Part shown: positions 44,156-48,524 of the stretch, in pieces | Layout of the letters: each line of letters begins with the position of its first letter | How positions within the stretch are numbered: the stretch's first letter is position 1 | Assembly (NCBI RefSeq): GCF_016765675.1 | Contig: NZ_JAESWB010000168.1 | Location: 62,001-126,000, forward strand | From: Neobacillus paridis | Lineage (GTDB): Bacteria > Bacillota > Bacilli > Bacillales > Cytobacillaceae | Length of the DNA stretch: 64,000 bases | Direction of reading: 5' to 3' | The notes under the pieces: model-generated | Told to the model about the DNA's origin: nothing | What the model saw: only the letters and a program-made list of their open reading frames with translations | The model's database searches: none | Program-made: the position numbers and the translations under genes

Positions 44156-44605
44156 ATGCCGAGCGGGAAACATCAAGTTGAAGTCGACTTACCAATCGAA
44201 GTGATTTGGGATTTCGTCAAGGATATGGACAATTGGGCGCCCCTTGTTCCCAACTACATCCATCATGAAAAACTAAACGAGCAACAGTCCACCTGGGAAT
44301 TTAAAAGTGATCTTGGTTTGATCAGAAAGAAAATCAGTTTATTGATTGATATTAAAGAGTGGATTGAACCAACAAGGGTGAGTTTTGCATTAAAGGGCAA
44401 GAGTGAAAAATACTTCGGTCAAGGCTATTTTGAAGCTAAGGCAATTCATCTGAATCGAACGAGATTGACCGGCTATCTTGAAGTAAATGCAATTGGTAAA
44501 ATGGGAAATGCCATCAATACCAAGCTGGAAACCGTTCTTCCAGAAGCAGTTACAGACATGGCCTTAGCGATTTGTGAAAAACTCGGGCAATTAAAAAGCG
44601 TATAG
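44156..44605 (+). CDS. SRPBCC (CoxG-like) family protein
   Basis: 149 aa START/Bet v 1-like fold: VDLPIEVIWDFVKDMDNWAPLVPNY at the N-terminus, beta strands with FALKGKSEKYFGQGYFEAK, and a long C-terminal helix. These proteins bind hydrophobic ligands; CoxG members help CO dehydrogenase maturation, but no such enzyme is nearby. Ligand unknown. AGGAAAGAGG lies just ahead of ATG 44156. Followed by a bidirectional terminator. Confidence 0.8.
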   Translation: MPSGKHQVEVDLPIEVIWDFVKDMDNWAPLVPNYIHHEKLNEQQSTWEFKSDLGLIRKKISLLIDIKEWIEPTRVSFALKGKSEKYFGQGYFEAKAIHLNRTRLTGYLEVNAIGKMGNAINTKLETVLPEAVTDMALAICEKLGQLKSV

Positions 44606-44668: not shown

Positions 44669-45322
44669 TTATGGCTGTTCACTCTGAGAAGCATTATCCT
44701 GAACCACTGGCTTGTTGGCACCATTTCCAGTTTGAGAATCAGGATCTTTACCGTTTTCATTTGGTTTAAGCAAATTTTTTAACAATGCCTCCATCTCTTT
44801 AAGCTCTTGTTCGCTTTTTGGTTCCAGTTCAACATTCCCGCCTTGATTAAATGTTAACTGAAATTGCGGCAGTGCTGCCTCACCGGTTGTAATCGAATGT
44901 GCCAGCAGTTTCACATTTTTAAGACCAATATTGCCATTTTCGGGCTTGTATGTGTCATTGTCGAAAGTAGCGTTGGTCACTTTTACTTTTAAACTTTTAA
45001 ATTGAACATTACCTTCCGAACCTATATTGGTTGTGAGCGTACTTCCTCCGATTTGAACCAGTTTTTTTATTTTTAACCCTTCAGCTTTCAGATTGACGAA
45101 ATTCATTTCCAACATTGGACGGTCTGTTTCGTTTATTGTTTCTCCAGTAACTAATTCAAGCCCCTGGATGGTACCTTCCATTCGACTTGCTTCAATAATG
45201 AACCCAATCACAACCGAATTAACAGCTAAACTATTTTTGGGCGGAATGACTAGCCAACTAAAGGCAAAAATGATAATAATAACGAATTTAATAGGATTTT
45301 TTTTCTGTTTCAAAGCTACCAC
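44669..45322 (-). CDS. Secreted/membrane-anchored protein, third gene of DUF6230/DUF6114-like locus
   Basis: 217 aa. An N-terminal TM or signal segment (FVIIIIFAFSWLVIPP) is followed by an extracytoplasmic beta-rich domain (~35-175) and a low-complexity C-tail rich in Asn, Gln and Gly. Inside the domain, FIIEASRMEGTIQGLELVTG echoes the DUF6230-like protein encoded two genes upstream (FTVSFDKMEGKGFKMYG), so the two may be distant paralogues (inference from short motifs). Start GTG 45322 is uncertain; TTG 45313 is possible. No known function. Confidence 0.65.
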   Translation of the reverse strand: MVALKQKKNPIKFVIIIIFAFSWLVIPPKNSLAVNSVVIGFIIEASRMEGTIQGLELVTGETINETDRPMLEMNFVNLKAEGLKIKKLVQIGGSTLTTNIGSEGNVQFKSLKVKVTNATFDNDTYKPENGNIGLKNVKLLAHSITTGEAALPQFQLTFNQGGNVELEPKSEQELKEMEALLKNLLKPNENGKDPDSQTGNGANKPVVQDNASQSEQP

Positions 45323-45382
45323 CGTTTCTGCGTACTATGCTCTTTCAAGTATTATTGTTACAATTACAACTAGTGCCAATGA

Positions 45383-45823
45383 TTATTCTAAAGATAATTC
45401 TTTTCCTGAGGCAACTTCCTTCTCGGCTTCCGGTTTTTGCTCCGGATGTTCTCCAGAATCAGCGCTCGCGATGACCGGTTTCCAGGCAATCTGCATTGCT
45501 CCCCCGACAATTCCTAGTAGGGTCCCAACAAGGAAACCGCCTAATGCTCCTAAAATCGATAAAACAGCGGAAAATATTGTAATAATCCCAAGCAAAGTCG
45601 ATAACTTTGGGAAAATAAGGGCTAGAATGCCCATTAGTAACGGCAGTCCTCCTAATAGCAGGCCAACCACGACCATACTTCCGGGTACCGCAGCAATTTC
45701 ATAAAGCTGTACCGGTACCGATAAAATGACAATCCCAGCTAAAATGGACAAGGTCGCCCCCCAGAAAGGGCGCCTTGCTCGCCAATTTTTAAACTTTTCG
45801 CGTTTTGAAGGGGTTGAGTTCAT
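45383..45823 (-). CDS. DUF6114-like four-helix membrane protein
   Basis: 146 aa. The N-terminus FKNWRARRPFWGATLSILAG and four hydrophobic helices, ending GGFLVGTLLGIVGGAMQIAW, match the DUF6114 family that I know mainly from actinomycetes. There it sits next to DUF6230 proteins, as it does here. AAGGATG lies 7 nt before ATG 45823. It follows the DUF6230-like gene by 36 bp, so one operon is likely. Function unknown. Confidence 0.75.
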   Translation of the reverse strand: MNSTPSKREKFKNWRARRPFWGATLSILAGIVILSVPVQLYEIAAVPGSMVVVGLLLGGLPLLMGILALIFPKLSTLLGIITIFSAVLSILGALGGFLVGTLLGIVGGAMQIAWKPVIASADSGEHPEQKPEAEKEVASGKELSLE

Positions 45824-45859
45824 ACAAATCATCCTTATATGATATACTTGATGCCGAAA

Positions 45860-46453
45860 TTATTTGGCCGGTTCAAAGGAAACCTTCATTCCGTTAAGAC
45901 TAACGGTTTTTTGGAAAAGATAGACTGTTTCCAGCACGCCATTAGTGAGTGTAATAGTATCGGCGGTTTGAGAAAAATGTTCAGCGGCGGCTCCAGCAAG
46001 GGTGGCAGGATTACTTAGATCACGGTCCCCAACGTATTTTTCTTTCATAGTCATCTCTGAAAATGAAGCATTACCATTTATTAGCGTTGCCTTTTGTTGA
46101 AGTCCGGTGATCTCAACCGGTTGACTAGCGGAAATAACCGCATTAATGCCAAGAAACGGGATTTTTTTGGTGATTTTTAAATTGGTAATCGTTGCTTTGT
46201 CAATTTCATTAACAGCAACAGGATTTTTTTCAGCCGTGGCACTTTCGGCAACACTGCCATACATTTTAAAACCTTTGCCTTCCATCTTATCAAAGCTGAC
46301 GGTGAAGCCGCCTACTAATGGTAGACCTGCGGCCATTCCGGTAAGCCCGAAAGTTCCCAAGAGCGCCCCTAAAAATAAAAACCCTCCAAGCAAAGCAATG
46401 ATGAGTTTTTTCTTGACTGTCTGTCCTCCGATGATCACTGATTCTGCTGTCAT
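45860..46453 (-). CDS. DUF6230-like secreted beta-rich protein
   Basis: 197 aa. An N-terminal hydrophobic segment (LIIALLGGFLFLGALLGTFG) resembles an uncleaved signal or anchor. The rest is beta-rich with FTVSFDKMEGKGFKMYGSV, VAVNEIDKATITNLKI and a final VSLNGMKVSFEPAK, the pattern of DUF6230 proteins described in Streptomyces and relatives. GGAGG lies 7 nt before ATG 46453, which is preferred over ATG 46510. First gene of the three-gene set, divergent from a GAF-LuxR regulator. No known biochemical role. Confidence 0.75.
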   Translation of the reverse strand: MTAESVIIGGQTVKKKLIIALLGGFLFLGALLGTFGLTGMAAGLPLVGGFTVSFDKMEGKGFKMYGSVAESATAEKNPVAVNEIDKATITNLKITKKIPFLGINAVISASQPVEITGLQQKATLINGNASFSEMTMKEKYVGDRDLSNPATLAGAAAEHFSQTADTITLTNGVLETVYLFQKTVSLNGMKVSFEPAK

Positions 46454-46713
46454 CCTTTGTCCTCCATTTCTTGATAATTTTGAATAGCGGTAGCCATTTT
46501 GGCAAATCACGAACTATTCGTCATAATTTTATGATAAATCAGAAAATAGGTTAACCCCTACATTTGTAGTGAAATTATCTTTAAAATAGGGAAATTTTAG
46601 GAGAACTCGTGCAAGATGAACGATAATTTGTGAAGAGAGCAGGAATTTTGCGGGATATTGGCGAATTAAGATTTCCATGAAATGACTACCAGTGAAAAGG
46701 AGGGAATCATCAT

Positions 46714-47892
46714 ATGTCTAAGTCACTGAATGCCCATTTAAACCATTTGCTAAATGATGCCGTTTCCCTGCTTAGTGACTATCAAGGGGATCTTTTACAC
46801 GAATGGGAGTTAACCCTTCAATCGCTCAATAATACGAAAAAGAAAACCATTGCTGTATTTGAATTTGCCAGTGACTTTCTCGTGAACTTTTTAGATACTT
46901 TTCACAAAGGTAAAGCTGATATTCATGAATTGTTGAAGGAAATTCAGTCAAGATGGTTTGCTGTTTTTAAGCGGTCGCCAGAGCCGGAATCACTCATTTT
47001 TCATCTGAACTTATTAGAAAATTCAGTGCATAGGGTGTTGAAAAGAAGGATTAAATATTCCTCAAAATTACATCCTTCGGTCCATTATTTATTTTCGAAA
47101 ATTAGTGAGGTCATGTTGTTTCAAACAGGGCTGGAGATGAAAAGCGCCTGGAAAGATGCCGTTATCCTTTTCAATGAATGGATTATTCGCTCGCAAAACT
47201 TTCAGGAATCTGTTGAAAATATTTGTTTCGGATTCGGTTATTTTTTGCCATTTGATCGGTGTGCTCTGTTTAAATTTGCAAATGAGGAAAGTGTCGGGGT
47301 TGGTTTATTTGGCCATCATTTAAATAATGACGAAATTCAAGCGATTGCTGAAAAAATTACCAATATTCCCGTCCTTAATGAAAGTATTGTGAAATTAAAA
47401 TCCCAAGGGCATGAAATGAAAAATTTCCAGCCGATTTATATTCCGGATGCCAAACACGAGTTTCCTGAACAATATGTTAAAAAGTTTGAACTAACTTCTT
47501 TAATCATTGTCCCAGTCTATGTTCCAGAAGAAGGGAAAATTATTGGCGGAATTGTGTTAGACCAAGGACCGGGCAAATATTTTACGGTAGATACAAGCCT
47601 TTTCCCGGCATTGATGAAATTTGGCCAAAGCTCAGGGGAGTTATTACTAAGATTTATTGATGCGCGGATAAAAAAACAGGATAAATTCGAGGAAGCTATT
47701 AATCTAACACCGAGGGAAATTGAAATCATTAAACTGTTAGCGGAAGGCGCCTCCACTCAAGAAGCCGCCTCGAGGCTTTATTTAAGTGAATACACCGTTA
47801 GAGACTATATCTCAAATATCATGAAAAGATTAAAAGCGCAAAATCGCACAGAAGTGGCTGTCAAAGCGATCCGCATGGGAATTATCGAATAA
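46714..47892 (+). CDS. GAF-LuxR transcriptional regulator
   Basis: 392 aa. An N-terminal helical region (~1-150) is followed by a GAF-like sensor domain (~160-320, with FLPFDRCALFKFANEESVGVG and LIIVPVYVPEEGKIIGGIVLDQG) and a C-terminal LuxR HTH (LTPREIEIIKLLAEGASTQEAASRLYLSEYTVRDYI). No receiver domain, so it responds to a small ligand or partner rather than phosphorylation. AAGGAGGGA precedes ATG 46714. Divergent from the DUF6230-like gene (260 bp apart), so it is a likely regulator of that locus (inference). Confidence 0.82.
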   Translation: MSKSLNAHLNHLLNDAVSLLSDYQGDLLHEWELTLQSLNNTKKKTIAVFEFASDFLVNFLDTFHKGKADIHELLKEIQSRWFAVFKRSPEPESLIFHLNLLENSVHRVLKRRIKYSSKLHPSVHYLFSKISEVMLFQTGLEMKSAWKDAVILFNEWIIRSQNFQESVENICFGFGYFLPFDRCALFKFANEESVGVGLFGHHLNNDEIQAIAEKITNIPVLNESIVKLKSQGHEMKNFQPIYIPDAKHEFPEQYVKKFELTSLIIVPVYVPEEGKIIGGIVLDQGPGKYFTVDTSLFPALMKFGQSSGELLLRFIDARIKKQDKFEEAINLTPREIEIIKLLAEGASTQEAASRLYLSEYTVRDYISNIMKRLKAQNRTEVAVKAIRMGIIE

Positions 47893-47956: not shown

Positions 47957-48104
47957 ATTTGTGATCGTCGCATGTTCATATTGAAAAGAAGGATGTTTAT
48001 TGATGAAAGAAATGAAATATATGTAAGGTGCCTATACCATCTAATGTGAATCGAATACTCTAAAATAAGGTAATGTGCGGAGCAATGGGGAAGGGGGAAA
48101 AGAC

Positions 48105-48524
48105 ATGAATAAGCATACCGAGAGTTGCTTTTGTCACGATTTGCAGCAATTGTTGGAGGAGCAGGAAAAACTGTCATTGAAAGGTTTTCGCTTTGTTTGT
48201 GAATCAATCGGATATGATACGATACCGTTTATCATTTCCAATCAGGAATGTCGCTTTGAAGCTTTCGGGAGATCAGTAACCGGGAACTGTTTCATTACAC
48301 CAGTATTTAGATTGGAGAAACTTGACATAAATCATTGCTGCGCAGTCCTTTCATTGCTTGAACCTGTAGATATCGATGGCTGTCCAATGGAATTTTGTGA
48401 TGAAGTGTATTCACTAATCAAAACGCAAGAATGTATCATTGTCGATTTAAGCTGTTTTTGTGCTCTTGAACCATTGTCCCCCAAATTAGTCGATCGGCCC
48501 CTGCCAATTATCGAACCAAAATGA
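48105..48524 (+). CDS. Divergent CotY/CotZ-family spore coat protein
   Basis: 139 aa with 11 Cys. The C-terminal IVDLSCFCALEPL matches the CotZ ending VDLNCFCAI at 13274-13798, and the N-terminus has ESCFCHDL. It lacks the internal CxxCxxC and the longer variable middle of CotZ, so it is a shortened, diverged paralogue. GGAAGGGGG at 48089-48097 supports ATG 48105 over an upstream ATG 48075. Two YjcZ-type genes follow in the same orientation, consistent with mother-cell expression. Confidence 0.75.
   Translation: MNKHTESCFCHDLQQLLEEQEKLSLKGFRFVCESIGYDTIPFIISNQECRFEAFGRSVTGNCFITPVFRLEKLDINHCCAVLSLLEPVDIDGCPMEFCDEVYSLIKTQECIIVDLSCFCALEPLSPKLVDRPLPIIEPK

Follow-up and report, generated by a model that had tools for sequence, protein, structure and literature searches.

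We describe here a four-gene locus in a 64-kb stretch of a Neobacillus paridis contig (the window; its numbering is used throughout, and "window" protein or locus denotes the copy lying in that stretch), and connect it with P16 and P21, two proteins reported to be inducible by long-chain alkanes. An operon on the minus strand (44669-46453) encodes, in this order, a DUF6230 protein, a DUF6114 protein and a third protein, while the gene for a LuxR-type regulator is divergently oriented at 46714-47892 on the plus strand. The reading that we favour, with somewhat better than even confidence, is that the locus is a P16-type, substrate-responsive apparatus of the cell surface for long-chain aliphatic hydrocarbons or lipids: in plain words, the gene set of this soil bacterium probably serves the uptake or handling of oily molecules at the cell surface, its nearest studied relatives being induced in thermophiles supplied with long-chain oil.

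An original prediction, made on the window alone, had placed all four genes where we find them and had assigned the first two to DUF6230 and DUF6114, an assignment now confirmed by search with the corresponding profiles. PF19741 (DUF6230) is over its cut-off of 27.5 bits in the first-gene frame, 45860-46510 on the minus strand (56.1 bits, E 6.7e-15), and PF19609 (DUF6114) spans its full model length in the frame at 45383-45832, minus strand (98.6 bits, E 3.9e-28; cut-off 27.9). Ribosome binding sites, judged by eye, make ATG 46453, preceded by the Shine-Dalgarno (SD) sequence GGAGGA at 46460-46465, a likelier start for the DUF6230 gene than the previously proposed GTG 46510; the gene thus defined (45860-46453) encodes 197 residues, which Pfam and identity to P16-type proteins indicate to be a P16-type secreted beta-rich protein. 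For the DUF6114 gene (45383-45823, minus strand), ATG 45823 is likewise the likelier start by eye, with SD AAGGATG, and the product is a small membrane protein featuring 4-5 hydrophobic segments by hydropathy. The third gene (44669-45322, minus strand) encodes a beta-rich paralogue of DUF6230 that is probably secreted and bears a short hydrophilic tail.

P16 and P21 are membrane-fraction proteins of Geobacillus thermoleovorans B23 raised by long-chain alkanes (Kato et al. 2009, PMC2676291). Their rise grows with alkane chain length, C10 to C34 having been tested, and is not produced by palmitic acid, tributyrin or trimyristin, nor in rich broth; both proteins were recovered in the insoluble membrane fraction, and the sequenced N-termini of P21 and P16 were found to be without leaders of 38 and 45 residues (PMC2676291). 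GK2770 and GK3040 of G. kaustophilus are given as the orthologues of P21 and P16, respectively (PMC10867098), and the names DUF6230 and DUF6114 do not occur in either paper. In the open literature searched, one unrelated article uses the name DUF6230 and none the name DUF6114. By eye, two internal P21 peptides match exactly the DUF6230 protein of locus L105, and the N-terminal and two other internal P21/P16 peptides match DUF6230 proteins with one or two differences: P21 peptides lead to loci L079, L105 and L116, those of P16 to L104 and L128-L130, the internal P16 peptide matching best in L129. All four of the peptide-matching proteins that were tested exceed the cut-off of PF19741.

Within this framework, the window DUF6230 protein shares 57-62% identity with five proteins of the P16 type, from Geobacillus-type loci, and about 30% with the P21 types; its DUF6114 partner (58-59%) and the regulator (49-50%, full length) are similarly close to those of L104 and L130. 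In the DUF6230 tree, which is midpoint-rooted and has several long branches, the window falls with P16 in a group of 23 rows, with a support of 93/84, just under the 95/80 mark. On these comparisons we assign the window locus to the P16 type. The earlier statement that no function is known for these families has thus to be amended, as the DUF6230 proteins P16 and P21 are reported to be inducible by long-chain alkanes (PMC2676291); the accompanying proposal of a lipid or other hydrophobic ligand is retained, as a prediction. A conserved gene of 162-165 residues is found downstream, mostly directly, of the P16-type DUF6230-DUF6114 pair in five of seven Geobacillus-type loci (L055, L104, L115, L126 and L129). 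It was considered as a hidden third gene and discarded, since neither of the two profiles, for DUF6230 and for the third gene, recognizes it.

The third protein itself has no Pfam or NCBIfam match at E<=1. When first and third genes were assigned by their position around DUF6114 among profile-labelled proteins, giving 81 first-gene and 70 third-gene proteins, an hhalign comparison of the two profiles covered 159 columns, with a probability of 98.9 and an E-value of 2e-17. In direct searches (E<=10, Z=100), the first-gene profile gave 56 hits among the 70 third-gene proteins (best 1e-15) and the third-gene profile 78 among the 81 first-gene proteins (best 1e-17), while equal numbers of shuffled sequences gave zero matches to either. 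Of 16 proteins encoded by third genes, PF19741 alone recognizes four (E<=1, best 7.1e-5); the products from L105 and L082 are unmatched at E<=0.01. By these profile comparisons the third gene product is a remote DUF6230 homologue, and the motif echo noticed in the original prediction (RMEG...GLEL in the third protein, KMEGKGFKMYG in the first) reflects true homology; the "third member" announced there does exist, as a remote paralogue of the first. Tandem pairs of DUF6230 genes occur in L110, L113, L117, L121 and L124.

Structural data on these proteins are limited to AlphaFold2 (AF2) models built from alignments of 7 sequences, the third protein being modelled with five strands at a mean pLDDT of 67.6. 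Its N-terminus is signal-peptide-like. In the window DUF6230 protein a hydrophobic N-terminal segment (17-35, by hydropathy), compared by eye with the P16 cleavage site, may be a cleavable signal peptide. The proteins had been described as anchored: P16 and P21 were recovered in the membrane fraction, but the N-terminal helix corresponds to a signal peptide, which these two relatives lose by cleavage, and not to a lasting anchor; the cell-surface location is supported by homology. C-terminal regions of the third-gene proteins of L097 and L099 contain eleven-residue repeats such as DPLEDTIGKVT, less regular ones being found in L106 and L109, and weak Pfam matches among the 16 third-gene proteins include Apolipoprotein (4), ApoLp-III (3), Phasin (3) and Perilipin (2). 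The tail repeats may possibly form amphipathic helices lying on lipid surfaces.

The gene set is neither rare nor confined to the window. Of 100 close relatives, 37 have the DUF6230 protein, and six named loci, in Bacillus renqingensis and five Neobacillus species, have proteins 72-80% identical to it. DUF6114 is over cut-off in 48 of the 397 genomes of the order, belonging to 22 of 135 genera (hand count), and in 7 of 299 genomes drawn from the phylum; the set, which the original prediction had called actinobacterial-type in a Bacillus-like genome, is therefore not an isolated import and no oddity in its host's order. Matches to PF19609 below cut-off, in frames of about 550 residues, were not counted as DUF6114, nor was one in B. 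subtilis, the one in L044 being by eye a transporter resembling the major facilitator superfamily (MFS).

Conservation of the arrangement was evaluated in 84 loci, representing 25 genera, each chosen because DUF6230 or DUF6114 is present in it: a DUF6230 gene lies at most 700 bases upstream of DUF6114 in 81, the third gene at most 700 bases downstream in 70 (22 genera), and the regulator is present in the fetched stretch of 67 (17 genera). Among the 100 relatives, 34 have both the regulator (E<=1e-45) and DUF6230, two the regulator alone (one of them a fragment), three DUF6230 alone and 61 neither (Fisher p 8e-21, uncorrected for kinship). The layout and this co-occurrence bear out the predicted operon with its own divergent regulator, and the survey its predicted recurrence in other genomes. 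Five genomes of the window's genus (G012, G019, G022, G041 and G046) contain two copies of the module, one window-like and one, type 2, with a DUF6230 protein about 40% identical, a longer third protein and regulator, and, in the loci displayed, a variant of the dyad described below. Other genomes of this genus contain short pieces with 70-80% identity to the window regulator (G036:C1:584923-585321 and G028:C1:3990787-3991152), apparently what is left of a type-1 locus since lost.

Searches of phages gave no match to the window DUF6230 protein. Among plasmids, queried with DUF6114 and the DUF6230 protein of L082, one record was found, from the archaeon Natronococcus sp. AD-5 (L086, 5356-6516): it carries a DUF6230-DUF6114 pair with acyl-CoA ligase and short-chain dehydrogenase/reductase (SDR) genes some 2-3 kb off, the ligase gene at about 3 kb, and neither third gene nor regulator could be found by profile.

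The regulator had been predicted to be of the GAF-LuxR kind. Its LuxR-type helix-turn-helix (HTH) is evident, GerE being the sole match over a Pfam cut-off (E 9.2e-16, 57.7 bits) and occupying the C-terminal part, after an N-terminal and a GAF-like region. The GAF domain is visible only through relatives: PF01590 gives no match at E<=1 in the window regulator, and is matched in six of nine members of the family (best 4.7e-6). In the regulator of the P16 locus L130 it scores 2.3e-4 and 22.1 bits, just under the cut-off of 22.4; that of L105 is unmatched at 0.01.

A conspicuous dyad, CCTACAAATGTAGG, marks many of the divergent promoter regions. It is matched at 14 of 14 positions in 22 of 58 such intergenic regions and at 13 of 14 in three, including the window; the dyad pattern as a regular expression is present in 31, where shuffling gives a mean of 0.04. 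The full 14 positions are common to two Geobacillus-type P16 loci (L104 and L126) and 19 Neobacillus loci, and variants such as CCCGACATTTGWCGGG occur in type-2 Neobacillus loci. In the window the putative operator, CCTACAWWTGTAGG, lies at 46557-46570, no strand being assigned; CTACANNTGTAG occurs once in the 64 kb, against 0.01 expected, and CCTACAWWTGTAG once in the 4.6-Mb genome, as does a reversed control pattern. With a single genomic occurrence, equal to the control, it is position and conservation, not number, that favour the dyad as a site, and the regulator therefore looks local. A wider dyad regulon was looked for and rejected: at one mismatch the genome holds one further site, versus seven per strand for the reversed control.

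A second conserved block, TTATCATAAAATTATGACGAAT, is located downstream of the putative operator on the DUF6230 side (46516-46539, minus strand), with a constant spacing to the dyad among the displayed type-1 loci of Neobacillus, and may act as a promoter. In many divergent loci, including L046, L100 and L104, a box such as AAAGCGCTTACA, which we take to be cre-like, follows the dyad. It would fit catabolite repression; none was seen in the window.

Genes of lipid oxidation are recurrent neighbours of the module in relatives. In six genera (L133-L138) it adjoins genes for SCP2, acyl-CoA dehydrogenase, enoyl-CoA hydratase, SDR, thiolase and acyl-CoA ligase, labelled by Pfam for representatives and by eye for the others, and R2lox is present in all of these loci except L135. 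Further genes encode a P450 and a reductase in L136, alcohol and aldehyde dehydrogenases in L079 and L138, and, in L110/L137, a GDSL lipase bearing a motif for anchoring to the cell wall. SCP2 lies at most 16 kb from DUF6114 in 8 of 25 genomes (13 of 33 SCP2 matches), 0.29 genomes being expected; the limit was set after seeing the distances, and the expectation derives from rounded genome sizes, contig breaks being ignored. R2lox scoring at least 291 bits, a line set with knowledge of the score gap that reaches down to 254 bits, is found in 18 of 397 genomes (9 genera), all 18 among the 48 with DUF6114: the hypergeometric probability is 1e-18 by genome and 2e-8 for nine of nine genera, kinship uncorrected. 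In 10 of the 18 the two genes lie within 10 kb of each other. At 1e-40, R2lox extends to 65 of the 397 genomes and the co-occurrence is weaker, 13 (hand count) of the 47 below 291 bits having DUF6114. The lipid-linked loci form two DUF6230 clades, separate from each other in the tree.

In one genus (g57; L038-L040, L083, L085 and L132), DUF6114 is fused N-terminally to an AMP-binding acyl-CoA ligase of about 870 residues in total; the fusion was checked by Pfam in L083, two more cases being deduced from equal frame lengths. A gene for an ABC1/UbiB-type kinase lies beside the L083 fusion, and a like kinase gene follows the DUF6230-DUF6114-third gene series in L082/L140 of the same genus. The R2lox of L105 matches PDB entry 4hr0 over 302 residues (670 bits), and 4HR0_A is GK2771 of G. 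kaustophilus, reported, from a crude-lysate assay, to be an alkane monooxygenase and located in a beta-oxidation cluster together with the P21 orthologue GK2770 (PMC10867098). The physiological function of R2lox was still called unidentified in 2019 (PMC6399176).

For the two Neobacillus loci L051 and L070, ten neighbours were annotated (BacA, a HATPase protein, NlpC/P60, PhaP, PadR, an M29 peptidase, MFS, QueF, MscL and Bax1-I), and no common theme emerged among them. Genes for PhaP, a polyhydroxyalkanoate inclusion protein, and for PadR-type proteins are found near 14 Neobacillus loci (L003, L004, L006, L007, L046 and others), and are not present in the window.

Taken together, families, paralogy, a conserved operon with its regulator, a conserved dyad, and linkage and co-occurrence with lipid genes in relatives are established here, and a mechanism can be proposed on their basis. 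The GAF-like/LuxR regulator would recognize the dyad CCTACAWWTGTAGG that lies between the two promoters, and would turn the operon on in the presence of a long-chain hydrophobic compound or its product. DUF6230 and its paralogue would be exported, lose their signal peptides and remain at the outer face of the membrane, where these secreted proteins may bind or solubilise the substrate; DUF6114, with about four helices, would be the membrane partner that passes it into the bilayer, from which cytoplasmic acyl-CoA ligase, oxygenase and beta-oxidation enzymes might take it. Ligand binding, contact between DUF6230 and DUF6114, the direction of transport and binding of the regulator to the dyad are thus predictions of the model. 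In a bolder version, which we regard as tentative and rather doubtful, long-chain alkanes and lipids would enter those bacteria and archaea that have no outer membrane by way of DUF6230 and DUF6114: the secreted DUF6230 proteins would extract the substrate and shield it on the outside, and DUF6114 would carry it across the bilayer and hand it to acyl-CoA ligase or to an R2lox alkane oxygenase. The ligase fusion hints that this could amount to vectorial activation, and the GAF-LuxR regulator at CCTACAWWTGTAGG would provide inducibility.

Several observations weigh against the favoured reading. Kato et al. report that disruption of P16 or P21 failed, and offer uptake, tolerance or degradation as explanations (PMC2676291); induction is not in itself uptake. 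The third gene is absent from all seven Geobacillus-type P16 loci examined. As for the dyad, it is no commoner in the genome than its reversed control; the P16-type loci L128-L130 match it at 11 of 14 positions only, and the regular expression is missing from 27 of the 58 divergent intergenic regions, and also from L133-L141 and L143, which include lipid-cluster loci. The window genome contains no R2lox at E<=1e-40, being one of 17 out of 48 DUF6114 genomes in this condition, and has a single SCP2 match, situated on a different contig; the loci with lipid clusters fall in two DUF6230 clades, neither of which is that of the window, and no gene of fatty-acid or alkane oxidation appears among the ten annotated neighbours of L051 and L070. 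In addition, the double metal-ligand mutant of R2lox lost activity only partly (PMC10867098), the lipid-family Pfam matches in third-gene tails are weak, and neither of two AF2 models (mean pLDDT 58 and 68) has a clear structural match. Our confidence is no higher because the dyad is incomplete in P16-type loci and the third gene is missing there. We infer that the window copy has kept the alkane or lipid role of its relatives; it may have diverged, as its own genome has no linked lipid-oxidation cluster and no R2lox at 1e-40.

Divergence of this kind is the core of one alternative, in which the window P16-type copy has drifted to another envelope role, involving the cell's own membrane lipids, a storage polyester or another hydrophobic signal, with hydrocarbon catabolism left to P21-type and lipid-cluster copies. 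The separation of the window clade from both lipid-cluster clades, the lack of a lipid oxidation gene among the ten neighbours of two Neobacillus loci, PhaP near 14 loci of that genus (the window not included), and the absence of the DUF6230 protein from 63 of 100 relatives are all compatible with it. We nevertheless deem it unlikely: P16, the closest studied relative of the window protein, is alkane-inducible (PMC2676291), and the compact regulator is conserved, as is the complete dyad in L104, L126 and 19 Neobacillus loci, though three other P16-type loci keep only 11 of its 14 positions. Alternatively, the proteins might protect the envelope against hydrophobic compounds, by tolerance, extrusion or surface modification, and not import them, alkanes acting as inducers through membrane stress. 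Tolerance is one of the options named by Kato et al., in whose experiments the superoxide dismutase P24 rises together with P16 and P21 (PMC2676291); the window genome has no linked degradation cluster, and transport rests on inference. Against protection, which we consider improbable, stand the catabolic neighbours of relatives (SCP2, acyl-CoA ligase, beta-oxidation and R2lox) and the fusion of DUF6114 to acyl-CoA ligase, and an export ATPase is not a fixed part of the module, an ABC-type ATPase cluster having been recognized, by eye, in the fetched stretches of only six of 25 genera.

Finally, the link with lipid genes could merely reflect common descent or genomic islands rich in metabolic genes, DUF6230 and DUF6114 forming a secreted complex of general structural role. 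Genomes from related genera do not count as independent, the linkage figures come without a matched random-operon control, and most genera show no linkage: in 17 of the 25 genomes SCP2 does not come within 16 kb of DUF6114. The linkage is, however, seen in two separated DUF6230 clades, and partly in the L140 lineage outside the class, with differing catabolic genes; DUF6114 is present in each of the 18 genomes (9 genera) that have the closer R2lox, and alkane induction has been measured in print (PMC2676291). This explanation appears very unlikely, and the reading of the locus as a surface apparatus for hydrocarbons or lipids is the one that we retain.

The operon is flanked by two genes of other kinds. 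At 44156-44605 on the plus strand lies a gene for an SRPBCC-like protein (CoxG/polyketide cyclase, below cut-off), which was rejected as a part of the module, only five matches having been obtained in the first locus set; at 48075-48524, also on the plus strand, a CotZ-type spore coat protein is encoded (PF10612, 52.5 bits).

What was already in print is the existence of alkane-inducible membrane proteins of unknown action; relative to the literature searched, what is new is their identification with DUF6230, the partner DUF6114, a paralogous second protein, a regulator together with a candidate binding site, and the wide extent of the linkage to lipid genes. Two Pfam families of unknown function are thereby tied to the published P16 and P21, which are supplied with a membrane partner, a paralogue, a regulator and a candidate operator, and with a link to R2lox. 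To our knowledge, the uptake of long-chain alkanes and similar oily substrates in bacteria without an outer membrane is largely unsettled, and the four genes provide a concrete and testable candidate for it, useful for oil biodegradation in Bacillaceae. A possible further use is the re-reading of 'cholesterol esterase' annotations in actinomycetes: the Streptomyces proteins of that name are presumably DUF6230 members, but no tie to the family could be made here, and they do not enter our evidence.

Among known systems, P16 and P21 (GK3040 and GK2770) are the closest: they are DUF6230 proteins, and the cleaved signal peptide is a feature described for them (PMC2676291, PMC10867098). As in the window, P16-type genes lie upstream of DUF6114, with a divergent regulator in most loci; the seven Geobacillus-type P16 loci differ from the window in being without the third gene. 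Paralogue, regulator and dyad are not mentioned in the available portions of the two papers (PMC2676291, PMC10867098). The N-termini of P16 and P21 are similar to the cholesterol esterase of S. lavendulae, full-length similarity being negligible (PMC2676291), and this likeness may be the origin of the 'cholesterol esterase' name. The R2lox alkane-degradation island of G. kaustophilus (GK2769-GK2782) is comparable with the Geobacillus-like loci L105 and L116/L138, which have the same type of R2lox and carry a DUF6230-DUF6114-third gene module and a regulator; the window differs from it in belonging to the P16 group and in having no R2lox or beta-oxidation genes alongside. In the outer-membrane transporters FadL and AlkL, acting with FadD, a surface protein hands a long-chain hydrophobic substrate to an acyl-CoA ligase. 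The likeness is one of logic, which the fusion of DUF6114 to a ligase fits, and no sequence relation is claimed: the host of the present locus is without an outer membrane, and DUF6230 is, as far as shown, a secreted protein and not a membrane barrel.

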